Source: Vreelandella songnenensis (GTDB lineage Bacteria > Pseudomonadota > Gammaproteobacteria > Pseudomonadales > Halomonadaceae). From it: 64,000 nt of DNA. A program made the translations under genes and the position numbers. Shown in pieces: positions 10,726 through 61,319 of this stretch. A model generated the notes under the pieces. That model was given only the letters and a program-made list of their open reading frames with translations. It had not been told where the DNA came from and did not search any database. The DNA is taken from positions 1 through 64,000 of the forward strand of contig NZ_PVTK01000005.1 in NCBI RefSeq assembly GCF_003002925.1, read 5' to 3'. Numbering within the stretch: the first letter of the stretch is position 1; each line of letters starts with the position of its first letter.

Positions 10726-10902
10726 ATGTACGTCTATCGCATCATGCTGTTTCTGGTGTTTGGCGGCTACCTGCTTTCACCGCTTTTAATGGATGGCTGG
10801 AGTGACCCCAGCGCCGCCTGGTATCGCCCGTTTGCCATCTGGGGCGTGCTGATTGCGCTGACCCTGTGGCTTGAGCAAAAAAGGAAGTTGGATGAGCGTT
10901 GA
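10726..10902 (+). CDS. cbrX: Small membrane protein CbrX-like, upstream of cbrA
   Basis: A 58-residue protein with two hydrophobic segments (about 3-21 and 31-48) and a charged end [15 protein letters not shown] lies 8 nt before the ATG. It occupies the place of the small cbrX gene known upstream of cbrA in pseudomonads, where its translation is coupled to cbrA. Here it overlaps the cbrA start by 11 bp, consistent with coupling. Identification rests on size, hydrophobicity and position rather than a sequence motif. No biochemical function can be deduced. Confidence 0.75.
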   Translation: MYVYRIMLFLVFGGYLLSPLLMDGWSDPSAAWYRPFAIWGVLIALTLWLEQKRKLDER

Positions 10903-13811
10903 GTTGACCGGCGTCTTGCTGCTGGGCCTTGGCTACCTGGCACTGCTGTTTGGCTGTGGCACCGCCGTGGAGCGCGGCTGGGTGCCCGCCCGCATTACCC
11001 GCCACCCGATGGTCTACACGCTGGCGCTCGGGGTCTATGCCAGCGCCTGGGCGATTTACGGCAGCATAGAGCTTGCAGCCAACGCCGGGTTCGGCTATCT
11101 GGCCTACTATCTGGGCGCGGCGGGCACTTTCCTGCTGGCCCCGGTGCTGCTGGTGCCCATTCAGCGCATTACCCGCACCTATCAGCTCGCCTCGCTGGCC
11201 GACCTGTTTGCGTTTCGCTTTCGCTCGCGCTGGGCCGGCACGCTGGTCACGCTGATCAGCCTGCTGGCAGTGCTGCCGCTTCTGGGCATTCAGGTACAAA
11301 CCCTGAGCGATGCGATTCGCTGGCTCACCGGCAGCCCCTACAGCTCGTGGGCAGCACTTGTGTTTTGCGCCTTGATTGCCAGCTTCGCGGTCATGTTCGG
11401 CGCGCGCCGCAGCCACTCGCATCAGGACGCGCTGATCAGCATCCTGGCGTTCGAGTCAGTGATCAAGCTGCTGGCCATGCTGGGCCTGGGGGCGGCGGCG
11501 CTGTGGCTCGTGTTTGACGGCCCGCAGGATCTTCAGCGCTGGCTGGAAGGCCCCGGCCTTCAGGCCCAGCAGGCGACTCAACAGTTGGAAGCCGCTCAGT
11601 GGCGCACCCTGCTGCTGCTGTTTTTCGCCTCGGCCTTCATGATGCCGCACCTGTTTCATATCACTTTTGCCGAAAACCTCTCACGCCATACGCTGCTGCA
11701 AGCCAGCTGGGCGCTGCCGCTCTTTCTGCTGCTGATGGCACTGCCCATCCCACTGATCTGGTGGGCTGCCCAGTCCGTCAATGACGAGATTCCGATCACG
11801 GCCTACGCGGTCTACATGATGAGCGAGCACGTGTGGGTCAAGGCGCTGGCGTTTGTTGCGGGGCTTGCCGCCGCCAGCGGCACCATGATCATGATTGCCC
11901 TGGCGCTTTCGGGCATGGTGCTGAACCATATCGTCCTGGTGGCCAGGCCCCCGGAGGCGCGCAGCGACCTCTACGGCTGGCTGCTCTGGCTGCGCCGGGG
12001 TCTGGTGGTCGGGGTGATCGTCAGCGGCTGGCTGTTTTATGAGGGAGTGGGCCGCCACCACGACCTGGCCAATCTGGGTCTGGCCTCCTTTGTGGGTATC
12101 GCCCAGTGCCTGCCCGGCATGCTGGCACTGCTCTACTGGCCGGGGGCCAATCGCAAGGGCATGGTGGTCGGGCTGATCGTCGGGGTCGGAATATGGCTCT
12201 GGGGACTATGGCTGCCGCTGGTTCTCTCGCTGCCCACCCCGCCGCTGCCGTTCACTCACCTGATACCGAGCGATGCGCCGCCCTGGTACACCGTCACCCT
12301 GCTGTCGCTGGCCACCAATATCGTGCTGCTGATCGTGATCTCGCTTTTCACGCGTATCTCCGAAGGCGAAAAGTCGGCGGCCGAGGCGTGCTCGGTAGAT
12401 GCGGTGATTCGTTCGAAGCGCCTGCCACTCGAGGCCGCCACGGCGGCCGACTTCACCCCGCATCTGGCCCGGGCGATTGGCGATGAAGCCGCTCAGCGTG
12501 AAGTATCCCGCGCACTGGCAGCGCTCAAGCTTGCCCCTCAGGAGCGTCGCCCCTATGCACTGCGCCGCCTGCGCGACCGTATTCAGGCCAACCTTTCGGG
12601 GCTGATGGGGCCGTCCGTTGCGCGCGATATCGTCGACCGCTACCTGCCCTACCGGCACGACGATGCGCCGGTGACCGACGATATCCACTTTGTCGAGAGC
12701 CGCCTGGAAGCCTACCGCTCGCGCTTGACCGGCCTTGCCCGCGAGCTCGACGGACTGCGCCGCCATCACCGCCAGACGCTGGCCCACCTGCCGGTCGGGC
12801 TGTGCGTGTTTGGCGACGACAAGGAGCTTTTGATGTGGAACCAGGCGCTTTCCCAGCTCTCCGGCATCAGCGGTGAAAGCATCATCGGCTCACGCTGTGA
12901 CAGCCTGCCCGCGCCCTGGCCGGCGCTATTGGGCAACGTGCTGCTCGCCCCTCACGCGCCGCTTTACAAGCAGGCGGTCACGCTGCATGGCAAGGACTAC
13001 TTCCTGACCCTGCACAAGGCCGAGCTGAGCGGCCACGACAGCCGGGGCGGCAGCGTTATCCTGGTCGAGGACCACACCGAGATGAAGTGGCTGGAGGACG
13101 AGCTGGTACACGCCGCTCGGCTGGCCTCGATTGGCCAGCTGGCAGCAGGCGTCGCCCACGAAATCGGCAATCCGATCACCGGTATTTCATCGCTGGCCCA
13201 GAACCTGCGCTACGATACCCAGGACCCCGCCCTGCTGGAAACCGCCGACCAGATTCAGGAACTGACCCAGCGCGTGACCCGGATCGTCAACTCGCTGGTT
13301 GGCTTCGCTCACGGCGGCCGCCATGCGGGCCTGCCGCCGGCTTCACCAGTGGCACTTACCACCATCAGCGAAGACGCATTACACTTGATTCATCTGGCGC
13401 GCTCGGGCGAGGATGTAACGCTCACCAACGCCTGCCCGGATGACGTCGTGGTACGCGGCGATGCGCAGCGCCTGACCCAGGTCATGGTCAACCTGCTCAG
13501 CAACGCCCGGGATGCCTGCATGCCCGATGGCCAGGTAACCATTACCGGCGGTTACGAGGCAGGCAGCGCCTGGTGGCGGGTCAGCGATAACGGCCAGGGA
13601 ATCGATCCGCGCGTGCGCGATCATCTGTTCGAGCCCTTTACCACCACCAAACCGGCCGGTGAAGGCACGGGGCTTGGGCTATCGCTTGCGTATCAGATCA
13701 TCAACGAACATCAAGGCAGGATAGAGGTGGCATCGCCACCGCCTGGAGAGCCCCGCGGCACGGCCATTACCCTTTGGCTGCCGCTCTACCAACAGGATGA
13801 CCAGCGACCTC

Positions 13812-13834
<23 letters not shown>
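10892..13834 (+). CDS. cbrA: Sensor histidine kinase CbrA with SLC5 transporter domain
   Basis: A 980-residue hybrid of a transporter and a kinase. The first 500 or so residues form a sodium/solute symporter-like (SLC5) membrane domain with about 13 spans. Then come a linker, a PAS-like region (about 625-730), a HisKA box with the phospho-acceptor His in [14 protein letters not shown], and an HATPase domain with DNGQGID and [10 protein letters not shown]. CbrA with CbrB controls carbon/nitrogen balance and use of amino acids such as histidine in pseudomonads. The ATG at 10892 follows AAGGAAG and overlaps cbrX. The 3' end overlaps cbrB by 23 bp, so the three genes form one operon. Confidence 0.95.
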
Positions 13835-15182
<1,348 letters not shown>

Positions 15183-15302: not shown

Positions 15303-15388
15303 CGTTACCCGCTCATTGTTACCTACCCACACAACCGGCCCGAAAAATCAGCCCAAATGCGGTAACACTTAAACCCCACAAACGTTAC
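15303..15388. promoter_or_regulatory. Cluster of GTTAC/GTAAC half-sites (putative CbrB enhancer)
   Basis: Four half-sites lie between the cbrB stop and the sigma-54 promoter: GTTAC at 15304, TGTTAC at 15317, GTAACA at 15362 and GTTAC at 15384. CbrB of Pseudomonas is known to bind repeats of the TGTTAC/GTAACA type upstream of crcZ. The cluster is 55-140 bp upstream of the sigma-54 promoter, a normal enhancer distance. Binding by this CbrB is an inference. Confidence 0.6.
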
Positions 15389-15441: not shown

Positions 15442-15457
15442 TGGCACAGCGAGTGCA
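15442..15457 (+). promoter_or_regulatory. Sigma-54 (RpoN) promoter of the CrcZ-like RNA
   Basis: The sequence TGGCAC-AGCGA-GTGCA matches the consensus TGGCAC-N5-TTGCA at all but one of the fixed positions. The essential GG and GC are 10 bp apart. Transcription would start near 15468. It sits between the GTTAC cluster and the A-rich repeats. Confidence 0.75.
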
Positions 15458-15467
15458 ATATATCCAG

Positions 15468-15920
15468 GTAAGAAAAACAAACTGGGCCAAGCGGTGGGTC
15501 TCAAACAAGAACAACACGACACCACCCAGACCTGAGCCAAAACAAGAACAACACGGCCAGGCGAGATAACGGTACGAATAAAAATAACAGGCTTGAATCT
15601 CATTACTTGCTGGCGCTAAGAAGAATAAGCGCAGCTAACAAGAACAATAGATAGCAAGTGCCCAAAAAGGACGCGACGTACACCAGGTGATCTGCGCACC
15701 AACAAGAATAACAGCAGTGAGTGTGTACACCCCGGAACCAATAACAACACGCCGGGGAAGAGAAGTTCGCGGTTGGATTATTGTTTTGAATACGAGGCGG
15801 TCGTGAAACGCCTTCCGACTGCGGTGCGTATTCAGGGCGATGTGCCATCATGAAGAAAAACAGCAGCATGGACGCTGATTGAATACTTTACAGGGGAGGC
15901 TCTCTTAGCCTCCCCTTTCC
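15468..15920 (+). ncRNA. crcZ: CrcZ-like Hfq/Crc-sequestering small RNA
   Basis: The cbrB-pcnB gap holds no credible gene but carries repeated A-rich motifs of the AANAANAA type. The clearest are at 15504-15516, 15541-15553, 15577-15589, 15618-15628, 15637-15649, 15701-15713 and 15740-15749, with looser copies near 15470 and 15853. The first two are identical (AACAAGAACAACA). In Pseudomonas, CrcZ lies at this same position, is transcribed from a CbrB/RpoN promoter and uses such motifs to bind Hfq with Crc, relieving catabolite repression. Here a sigma-54 promoter precedes the motifs and a strong terminator follows, giving a transcript of about 450 nt (Pseudomonas CrcZ is about 400 nt). Ends are estimated. 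Whether a Crc protein exists in this organism cannot be seen from the window. Confidence 0.8.
15892..15920 (+). terminator. Terminator of the CrcZ-like RNA
   Basis: A 10-bp perfect stem (AGGGGAGGCT / AGCCTCCCCT, 15892-15901 and 15907-15916) with loop CTCTT is followed by TTTCC. It separates the small RNA from pcnB. Confidence 0.85.
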
Positions 15921-16054
15921 GCGTTTATAGAATGAAGCGTTTGCAAACCCGTGAGCGAGACTTTGCAAGTGTTAAGGGGTCGGCTACACTCTCAGCCACT
16001 TACTATTTTTTTAATGGCCACTTTTTTAGCCACCCTGCGAGTCGATATCGCCGC

Positions 16055-17443
16055 ATGTTCAAAGGATTTACCCGTTTCTTATCTAATCAGGGAGAGCAAG
16101 TGAAAACGCTGCTCGATCCCCAGGAGAGTGAAGCCACTCTCAGCCCCCGTGTTATCCCCCGGTCCGAGCACCCCGTTTCTCGCCAGCACATCAGCGACGC
16201 CGCGTTAAAGGTGCTTTATCGCCTTAACGGCGCAGGCTTTGACGCTTATCTGGTAGGTGGCTGCATCCGCGATGCACTGCTTGGCAAGATGCCCAAGGAT
16301 TTCGACGTGGCCACCAACGCCACGCCCGAGCAGGTGCGTGACCTGTTTCGCAATTCGCGGCTGATTGGCCGACGTTTTCGCATTGTTCACGTCCGCTTTG
16401 GCCGCGAAGTCATCGAAGTCACCACGTTCCGCGGCAAGCCTCAGGACGAGCACGGCGAGAATATCGCTCACCAGTCGGACGCCGGCCTGCTGCTGCGCGA
16501 CAACGTGTGGGGCAACATTGAAGAGGACGCCGTGCGGCGTGACTTCACCGTCAATGCGCTTTACTACAACATTGCCGACTTCAGCCTGCACGACTTTGCC
16601 AACGGTGCAAAGGATATCGAGTCGCGCACCCTGCGCCTGATTGGCGACCCGGCCACGCGCTACCGCGAAGACCCGGTGCGTATGCTGCGCGCCGTACGCT
16701 TTGCCGCCAAGCTCGACTTCACCATCGAGCCTGCCACCGAAGCGCCAATGCATGACCTGGCACCGCTGCTGCTGCAGATTCCGCCAGCGCGGCTGTTCGA
16801 TGAAGTGCTCAAGATGTTCATGTCCGGCCACGGGCTTGCCACTTTCCGGCTGCTCAGCCACTACGGCCTGTTTGGCATGCTTTTCCCCGAAGCGGAAGAA
16901 GCCATGGCAGACGCGGCGTGGGCCGAAAAGCTGATCGAATTTGCTCTGGCCAACACCGACAAGCGCATCGCCGAAGATCGTCCGGTCACCCCGGCGTTTC
17001 TGCTGGCTGCATTCTTGTGGGCGCCGGTGGCTCACCGTCAGGCGGAGCTTGAAAGCGAAGGCATGCCGGCCATTCCGGCGCTACAGACCGCCTCTCAGGA
17101 GGTGGTATCGCGCCAGCTGGAGCATACCTCGATTCCCAAACGCTTTGGCATGCCCATGCGCGATATCTGGGAGCTGCAGACTCGCCTGCCCCTGCGACGC
17201 GGCAAGCGCGCCTTCCAGACCCGCGAGCATCCGCGCTTTCGCGCCGCCTATGACCTGCTGCTTCTGCGCGAGCAGGCCGGTGAAATACCGCGTGGCCTGG
17301 GTGACTGGTGGACCGCCTTCCAGCAGGGCGATGAGCACGAGCAGCGCCGTCTGCTGCAGAAAGTAGGCGGCGACCCGGCAAGCCAGGGCGACCGTCGGCG
17401 CAAACGGCGCCGCAAGGCACCACGCAACGGCGGCGAACAGTAA
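16055..17443 (+). CDS. pcnB: Poly(A) polymerase I
   Basis: A class II nucleotidyltransferase of the tRNA-CCA/PcnB family, 462 residues from this start. It adds poly(A) tails that promote RNA decay. The catalytic head has LVGGCIRDALLG and the metal-binding DFDVATNATPEQV; the arginine-rich tail (RRRKRRRK) is typical of PcnB rather than of CCA-adding enzymes. The start is uncertain. The ATG at 16055 gives an N terminus like Pseudomonas PcnB but has no clear ribosome binding site. A GTG at 16100 is in frame and follows GGGAG at a good distance. The reading frame also stays open back to 15932. Confidence 0.93.
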   Translation: MFKGFTRFLSNQGEQVKTLLDPQESEATLSPRVIPRSEHPVSRQHISDAALKVLYRLNGAGFDAYLVGGCIRDALLGKMPKDFDVATNATPEQVRDLFRNSRLIGRRFRIVHVRFGREVIEVTTFRGKPQDEHGENIAHQSDAGLLLRDNVWGNIEEDAVRRDFTVNALYYNIADFSLHDFANGAKDIESRTLRLIGDPATRYREDPVRMLRAVRFAAKLDFTIEPATEAPMHDLAPLLLQIPPARLFDEVLKMFMSGHGLATFRLLSHYGLFGMLFPEAEEAMADAAWAEKLIEFALANTDKRIAEDRPVTPAFLLAAFLWAPVAHRQAELESEGMPAIPALQTASQEVVSRQLEHTSIPKRFGMPMRDIWELQTRLPLRRGKRAFQTREHPRFRAAYDLLLLREQAGEIPRGLGDWWTAFQQGDEHEQRRLLQKVGGDPASQGDRRRKRRRKAPRNGGEQ

Positions 17444-24008: not shown

Positions 24009-24278
24009 TTAGCGACGCAGGCCCAGACGCTGGATCAGAGACTGGTAGCGTTCGAAATCCTTGCGCTTCAGGTAGTCCAGCAGTTTACGACGCTGGTTTA
24101 CCATGCGGATCAGACCACGACGAGAGTGGTGATCCTGCTTGTTGGTCTTGAAGTGGTCCTGCAGGCCATTGATGTTGGCGCTCAGCAGTGCAACCTGTAC
24201 TTCAGGGGAACCGGTATCGTTGTCGCCGCGGCCGTATTCGTTGACGATCTCGGCCTTCTTCTCAGCGGTTAAAGCCAT
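24009..24278 (-). CDS. rpsO: 30S ribosomal protein S15
   Basis: An 89-residue primary 16S-binding protein, full length for the family. The conserved [34 protein letters not shown]-type core (split here for brevity) and the C-terminal [13 protein letters not shown] are all present. AGAGACAG precedes the ATG. It follows truB after a 104-bp gap. Confidence 0.98.
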
Positions 24279-24382
24279 CTGTCTCTCCAGTAAGCAATAT
24301 GCCTAAAAATGAATGGGTGAGACCACGCATATTTGCAGTCTCAGGCGCTATTTTCGCGTAAAACGCCACGTCCTTGCAACGT

Positions 24383-60939: not shown

Positions 60940-61319
60940 GGGGGCGACATGGTTTCGACGCCGGTGACAACCCTTGCGGTGCATGCCGAGAGCGTGATGT
61001 ATCTCGTAAATCCCACATCACGAAAAATAGTCGCAAATGACGAAAACTACGCTCAAGGCGCGCTGGCAGCTTAAACCCTGCTAGCTTCTTGTCTGGCCCC
61101 AAGGTGATGTGCCTATTCATCACTGAGGGGATATGAGCTAAAGCTGATAGGACCGCGGTTGGTGGTGTCTTCTCGTCAACCGTTAAACTTTAGAAGGCTC
61201 GCGTTGCTGAATCCTGATCGTCGGAGTCAGTGACGTTAAAGCAAATGACGAAATCTAAGCATGTAGAGCCAATAGGCGCGTGCTGGCGGACGCGGGTTCA
61301 ATTCCCGCCGCCTCCACCA
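60940..61319 (+). ncRNA. ssrA: Transfer-messenger RNA (tmRNA)
   Basis: The 5' end GGGGGCGACATGGTTTCGAC pairs with the 3' end CGCCTCCA to form the tRNA-like acceptor stem (one G-U pair), ending in encoded CCA at 61319. The T-arm GCGGGTTCAATTCCCGC is present. The tag frame starts at GCA 61033 and encodes ANDENYAQGALAA, ending TAA at 61072-61074. At 380 nt it is of normal length. The tmRNA 3' end is a frequent integration site, but no integrase follows here. Confidence 0.97.

Follow-up and report, generated by a model that had tools for sequence, protein, structure and literature searches.

A candidate CrcZ-like decoy RNA with an extra 3' domain between cbrB and pcnB in Vreelandella songnenensis and other Halomonadaceae

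The gap between cbrB and pcnB in the window, by which we mean the whole 64,000-nucleotide stretch of Vreelandella songnenensis DNA that was analyzed, most probably encodes (we put the probability at roughly 0.87) a stand-alone, sigma54-dependent small RNA at positions 15468 to 15919 that works like CrcZ of Pseudomonas and carries an extra domain at its 3' end. The support, which is at the level of sequence, comes from the promoter, the CbrB sites, an array of A-rich sites, conservation, the partner genes, and covariation in helix P2 and the GGA hairpin of the 3' region (Table 1). A preliminary description of this DNA had proposed a CrcZ-like Hfq/Crc decoy, and that reading is supported by the place of the RNA, its promoter, two of the three CbrB subsites, the array, and the partner genes. 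We infer that the RNA would be transcribed once good carbon sources are exhausted, when CbrA/CbrB would activate its promoter, and that it would then bind and soak up Hfq and Crc, thereby lifting the repression that governs food choice, as with Pseudomonas CrcZ.

Table 1. Features at and around the predicted decoy RNA (positions in the window)
Feature	Positions	Strand	Remarks
CbrA-type sensor kinase	10871-13834	+	listed length 987 aa, start codon uncertain
CbrB-type sigma54 activator	13797-15182	+	Response_reg, Sigma54_activat
CbrB subsite F1 (TGTTAC)	15317-15322	+	published consensus
CbrB subsite R2 (GTAACA)	15362-15367	+	middle subsite R1 missing
sigma54 -24/-12 element, TGGCACAGCGAGTGCA	15442-15457	+	directly before the array
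CrcZ-like decoy RNA, predicted transcript	15468-15919	+	from array, promoter, and predicted pairing
Eight A-rich (AAN)n sites	15470-15747	+	starts 15470, 15504, 15541, 15577, 15618, 15637, 15701, 15740
3' domain	15780-15841	+	P1, 15780-15794 with 15827-15841; P2, 15797-15802 with 15817-15822; model R1
Ninth A-rich site	15853-15860	+	between P1 and the GGA hairpin
Hairpin P3, CAGC-AUGGAC-GCUG	15864-15877	+	ANGGAN hexaloop, presumed CsrA/RsmA-type site
Terminator-like hairpin	15893-15918	+	stem-loop 15893-15915, -18.7 kcal/mol, then three U
pcnB, poly(A) polymerase	15932-17443	+	start perhaps 16055

The A-rich array, its promoter, and the downstream hairpin

Nine nonoverlapping matches to AANAANAA were found on the + strand of positions 15468 to 15925, and one was found on the - strand. 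When this region was shuffled 5,000 times with its dinucleotides preserved, the shuffles contained a mean of 0.76 and a maximum of 4 matches, and none of the 5,000 reached nine. Slices of 458 bases from the + strand of the window had a mean of 0.13 matches, and positions 15468 to 15925 are the maximum of the window on either strand. The block AACAAGAACAACA is present exactly at 15504 and 15541, with the variants AACAAGAACAATA at 15637 and AACAAGAATAACA at 15701. The earlier statements that the gap holds at least seven A-rich motifs, that some are repeated almost exactly, and that they run along one strand therefore all hold. Several of these (AAN)n sites, which are of the type bound by Hfq, are predicted to be unpaired, with a mean unpaired probability of 0.93 at motif positions versus 0.61 for the other A residues of the locus. 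A coding explanation, based on a short frame that would open at the ATG at 15850, was rejected, as most rows from other genera have ACG at that position.

The position of the sigma54 element immediately upstream of the array places the expected (predicted) transcription start near 15468. The published CbrB site is TGTTAC-N12-14-GTAACA-N15-19-GTAACA (PMC8871633; PMC6296734). In five loci from Pseudomonas, Serpens, Gilvimarinus, and Cellvibrionaceae, F1 was present in 5/5, R1 was exact in 4/5, and R2 was present with one mismatch in 5/5, at approximate positions -123, -102, and -81 relative to the -24 element. The corresponding set of CbrB-containing loci from the family consisted of 25 loci from the window's own genus and 28 others, Halomonas maura (L010) included. 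F1 was exact in 20 of the 25 and 25 of the 28 (45/53), and R2 was exact in every locus of both groups (25/25 and 28/28, or 53/53), and R1 with at most one mismatch was found in 0/25 and 2/28, respectively. The reversed-pattern control for F1 was high in the own genus (15/25 at one mismatch or fewer), so the weight of the own-genus comparison rests on the exact F1 and R2 counts. At least two copies of GTTAC/GTAAC within 250 nt were present in all 58 CbrB-containing loci tested, outgroups included, with a mean of 2.66 versus 0.43 in shuffled sequences. The window's own promoter has CbrB sites only and lacks the NtrC-like pair described below for some relatives. In two Pseudomonadaceae-type loci, Rfam matches to the P36 sRNA were observed just before CrcZ, where the CbrB sites lie (L006, 4977 to 5037; L207, 389 to 449).

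The preliminary description had also claimed a strong terminator at the end of the array. The strong hairpin stands; the terminator is less clear, since the hairpin is followed by a short U run and the stem-loop at 15893 to 15915 is absent from the output of a consensus terminator scan. Downstream, the pcnB start at 15932 is the first start codon in the open reading frame list, and 16055 is the position of the next ATG in frame; the PcnB alignment of most relatives in the family begins at residue 26 or later, so the noncoding gap may be longer than listed. Boxes of the form TTGCAA-N16-TACACT were seen by eye within 15950 to 16060, before the possible start at 16055, and also in another locus of the family (L111). 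They are absent from the output of the consensus scan mentioned above and suggest that pcnB may have its own promoter, distinct from that of the RNA. The window also holds a tmRNA gene (60940 to 61319) and a ribosomal S15 leader (24222 to 24346), both identified with Rfam.

An array that lies between cbrB and pcnB and ends in so short a U run might instead be the 3' end of the cbrB message or the leader of the pcnB message, either of which would regulate itself via Hfq, and in Pseudomonas, transcription from the cbrB promoter is reported to read through into crcZ (PMC8871633). We regard this as improbable, because a sigma54-like promoter precedes the array and a strong hairpin follows it, and because the array and the sigma54-like site persist in relatives in which cbrB is absent from this place.

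Partner proteins and relation to known decoy RNAs

The gene order is cbrA-cbrB-RNA-pcnB, and the flanks are a CbrB-type activator and PcnB, in agreement with the placement given in the preliminary description. The best PDB match of the CbrA-type kinase is 10ed, named a histidine kinase (E 1.2e-177, residues 8 to 596). Its Pfam domains are HisKA and HATPase_c only, with no symporter family detected at E 0.001. CbrB is 61 to 64% identical to its counterparts in Pseudomonas, Serpens, Gilvimarinus, and Cellvibrionaceae and 79% identical to that of Halomonas maura. Hfq, CsrA, and NtrC are each encoded in the window's genome.

The search of the genome for a crc gene that had been proposed at the outset yielded a Crc without the nuclease residues. 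Four proteins in the genome match Exo_endo_phos, one of which is Crc-like and is encoded between pyrE and rph. At E 1e-73, this protein matches two PDB entries that bear the name catabolite repression control protein, 4jg3 and 4f1r. Its best match, 2myi (E 5e-76), carries the name exodeoxyribonuclease III in the PDB, and we take it to be a Pseudomonas Crc. Active nucleases of the same family also match the protein well. In a check of the catalytic positions, which covered the protein of the window's genome plus 20 proteins from the order, N was found in place of E34, T and Q in place of D151 and N153, and F in place of H259 (presumably ExoIII numbering) in the window's protein, and the nuclease residues were kept in 4 of the 20 others (L244, L245, L248, and L250). 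Best matches to Crc were present in all 151 genomes of the family at E 5e-114 or better, including genomes with no CbrB match. Crc alone was rejected as a marker of the system, both for this persistence without CbrB and for the nuclease-type residues of those 4 of 20 proteins.

One study reports that CrcZ of Pseudomonas aeruginosa also disturbs Hfq-mediated riboregulation (PMC8266614), and the RNA could by analogy be a sponge for Hfq only, with no role for Crc, whose main effect would be to release Hfq for, or withhold it from, base-pairing small RNAs. The retention of Crc across the family and the replacement of its nuclease residues in the window's genome speak against this, and we think it quite unlikely.

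The Rfam covariance model for CrcZ (RF01675), a search that the preliminary description had suggested, gave 14.2 bits at 15538 to 15557, versus a gathering cutoff of 95. Positive controls from three Pseudomonadaceae-type loci (L006, L011, and L163) scored 272 to 350 bits in the same place. Six of the 27 loci scanned exceeded the cutoff (L006, L011, L163, L207, L208, and L191), L191, from one near family, doing so with 102.5 bits, and 0/7 loci of the Halomonadaceae did. By these matches, family f21 is of the Pseudomonadaceae type and family f2 is just over the cutoff. Since the model picks out loci of the Pseudomonadaceae type plus a single near family, it says little about Halomonas and was set aside as a deciding test. 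The evidence of place, promoter, and sites supports the view that the window's RNA is an equivalent of CrcZ and not a member of RF01675. The low score nevertheless counts against the CrcZ-like reading, as do the missing R1 subsite, the short U run, the filing of 2myi as a nuclease, the good matches of active nucleases to the Crc-like protein, the occurrence of Crc in genomes where CbrB was not found, and two CbrB loci described below (L005 and L007) that have neither pcnB nor an array downstream.

The RNA resembles Pseudomonas CrcZ in lying between cbrB and pcnB, in its sigma54 promoter, in having F1 and R2 at nearly equal distances, and in its unpaired A-rich sites. Its length is similar as well: in PAO1, CrcZ is described as 407 nt long, with six A-rich stretches (PMC4063720). 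It differs in having nine sites, no R1, an extra 3' domain, and an Rfam score below the cutoff, and some of its relatives in the family have NtrC-like instead of CbrB sites. CrcY and CrcX of Pseudomonas and Azotobacter are described as belonging to the same class of Hfq/Crc decoys under CbrB and sigma54; unlike these, the 3' element of the window's RNA is present in a single copy in its genome (core matched with at most 2 mismatches, a search that covers arrays carrying that element only). The ANGGAN hexaloop hairpin and the presence of a CsrA gene recall the CsrA sponges RsmY, RsmZ, and CsrB, but here there is a single hairpin of this kind, close to the 3' end, and the rest is mostly an Hfq-type array.

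The conserved 3' domain and GGA hairpin

The 3' domain is found before the terminator in 62 of 65 loci of the family (L010 and L085 to L148), and it was not found in L139, L140, and L148. RNAalifold applied to 38 loci gave a nearly invariant 15-bp helix that is extended by up to 8 bp; the strands of the 15-bp helix are AUUGUUUUGAAUACG and CGUAUUCARGGCGAU, U.G pairs included. In the structure given in Table 1, 95.8% of cells pair, versus 26 to 41% in slid controls. Two-sided changes were counted at 7 pairs, in 28 cells, whereas shuffles gave 4.8 and none of 500 reached the observed value. The eight inner pairs of P1 hardly vary and hence have no support from covariation. Covariation at the sequence level does support helix P2 and the hairpin.

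A hexaloop of the form ANGGAN closed by a stem of 3 bp or more, a motif that we take to be a CsrA/RsmA-type site, was present in 42 of the 62 loci, the window's own (L085) included, compared with 1.2 expected from shuffles and 0/62 for a control loop. Some of the other 20 have GGA in a slightly different loop, and there was no GGA at the last hairpin in L127, L128, L130, and L143. Under stricter filters, model R1 of the domain matched 10/10 genomes of the family versus 0/234 genomes sampled from other families of the order. No Rfam family matched the domain at the cutoff. The domain was also considered as a part of Pseudomonas CrcZ or as an order-wide element, and this was rejected, as it was not found in L006, L011, or the 234 other-family genomes. 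The 3' end of the RNA would thus consist of a long helix, usually followed by the GGA hairpin. The extra domain probably binds a protein, and as a first guess CsrA would be the leading candidate for the hairpin.

Conservation, spread, and activator sites in relatives

PcnB was identified in all but one of the family's 151 genomes, which represent 24 genera, and 64 loci with at least one per genus (L085 to L148, L085 being the window's own) were examined. In 63 of these, 5 to 10 copies of AANAANAA lie within 484 nt behind a sigma54-like site that was chosen to maximize the count behind it. The sigma54 consensus is matched at all scored positions in 50 of the 63 loci and departed from in 13, and the site in L140 was reassigned by hand with no change in the count. 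The single locus without an array (L148, genus g24) has its cbrB elsewhere, with no array in the stretch fetched. Family-wide, the predicted unpaired probability was 0.92 at motif positions versus 0.61 for other A residues and was higher at the motifs in 63/63 loci. The preliminary description had called for this comparison of the gap across Halomonadaceae and would have yielded had the A-rich motifs been lost in relatives; they recur in 63 of the 64 loci.

The order comprises 46 further families, and 40 stretches upstream of pcnB were collected from 30 of these (among the matches listed); 38 of the stretches, from 28 families, could be scored. An excess of sites at p<0.01 was found in 28 of the 38, a sigma54-like site in 33, and both in 25. 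Ten loci missed the excess, with one or two sites only in L198, L202, and L222, and five had no sigma54-like site. The end of cbrB was present in 30/38, and in 11/38 the F, R, and R subsites are placed near -121, -102, and -80, with deviations of a few bases at most. At the level of the class, CbrB was matched in 37/369 genomes. From the 35 matches outside the family, 28 loci were fetched (L163 to L190), whose CbrB-like proteins are 53 to 62% identical and come from many gammaproteobacterial families. There was no pcnB and no array in up to 1,500 nt downstream in 27 of the 28 (two of them ended by the contig), and the one locus with both is from f21. CbrB alone was accordingly rejected as a marker of the system. 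Eight loci (L005 to L012) from 80 CbrB-relative loci were examined in detail; two of them had neither pcnB nor an array downstream of CbrB, namely L005, from a MAG of the Pseudomonadaceae, and L007, from a gammaproteobacterium and situated at the end of its contig. The two Gilvimarinus loci, L008 and L009, have 14 copies of AANAANAA behind the promoter, the largest arrays among the loci examined. In this sampling, the unit is widespread at the level of the order but not at that of the class.

Since the gap is poorer in G+C than the window (49% versus 61%), A-rich motifs might be common there and the array a spacer without function. This has next to no probability in our judgment and, as far as these tests go, is refuted at the sequence level: nine sites were not equaled in any dinucleotide shuffle, the sites of the 38 other-family loci number 214 forward versus 31 reverse, and nearly all family loci keep the array.

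A review states that the cbrA-cbrB-crcZ organization has been described only in Pseudomonas and Azotobacter and that it is unique to Pseudomonadaceae (PMC8871633), and another paper calls CbrAB exclusive of Pseudomonads (PMC6296734). Open-access literature covering Halomonas, the Halomonadaceae, Marinobacter, Alcanivorax, and Oceanospirillales yielded no report of CrcZ outside Pseudomonadaceae. New with respect to what is in print are the arrays with sigma54-like promoters before pcnB, which occur in 20 of the 28 other families scored.

CbrB was matched at E 1e-125 in 114 of the 151 family genomes, and 37 had no match. Eleven loci from the latter were examined (L119, L120, L127, L128, L130, L136 to L140, and L111); eight of the genomes are among those listed without a match, and three (G090, G105, and G120) are absent from the list of matches. 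The array and a sigma54-like site are retained in every one of the 11. F1 and exact R2 were each found in 0/11, and R2 with one mismatch was found in 3/11. Paired NtrC-like operators 31 to 32 bp apart were present at p<0.05 in 10/11, compared with 17/28 CbrB-containing loci from other genera, 1/25 from the own genus, and 1/5 from outside the family. The glnA promoters used as controls had such pairs at p<0.05 and with like spacing in 5/5, one control being confirmed by a family model and the other four being 84 to 91% identical to it. NtrC exceeded the cutoff in 12/12 genomes tested. The operator consensus used for scoring is assumed to be correct, and the spacing was chosen after inspection, so these pairs are a strong lead and not proof. 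Single NtrC-like sites (p<0.05 in 7/11 CbrB-less loci and in 2/23 CbrB-containing loci given) were a weaker test than pairs and were set aside. On a poorly resolved tree built from 41 PcnB fragments, the CbrB losses require 4 changes (bootstrap, 3 to 6). There are signs of an exchange of activator inside the family, and we infer that NtrC may control the RNA in relatives that lack CbrB.

A wider and distinctly more tentative possibility is that the decoy RNA joins three circuits: titration of Hfq and Crc for carbon, a conserved GGA hairpin for CsrA next to the near-invariant, folded 3' domain, and a promoter that in many genera takes both carbon and nitrogen input through interleaved NtrC-like and CbrB sites, with lineages lacking CbrAB running the RNA from NtrC alone. 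If this is true, a carbon-starvation decoy would have turned into a nitrogen-starvation decoy in the lineages that lost CbrAB. The presence of so conserved a 3' domain points to a further task for a CrcZ-type RNA. Relatives that lack CbrB, for their part, amount to a natural experiment on the exchange of activator at a global decoy RNA. Halomonas-type bacteria are industrial hosts, and the occurrence of the promoter, CbrB sites, array, and pcnB linkage in many other families makes catabolite repression in those families directly testable.
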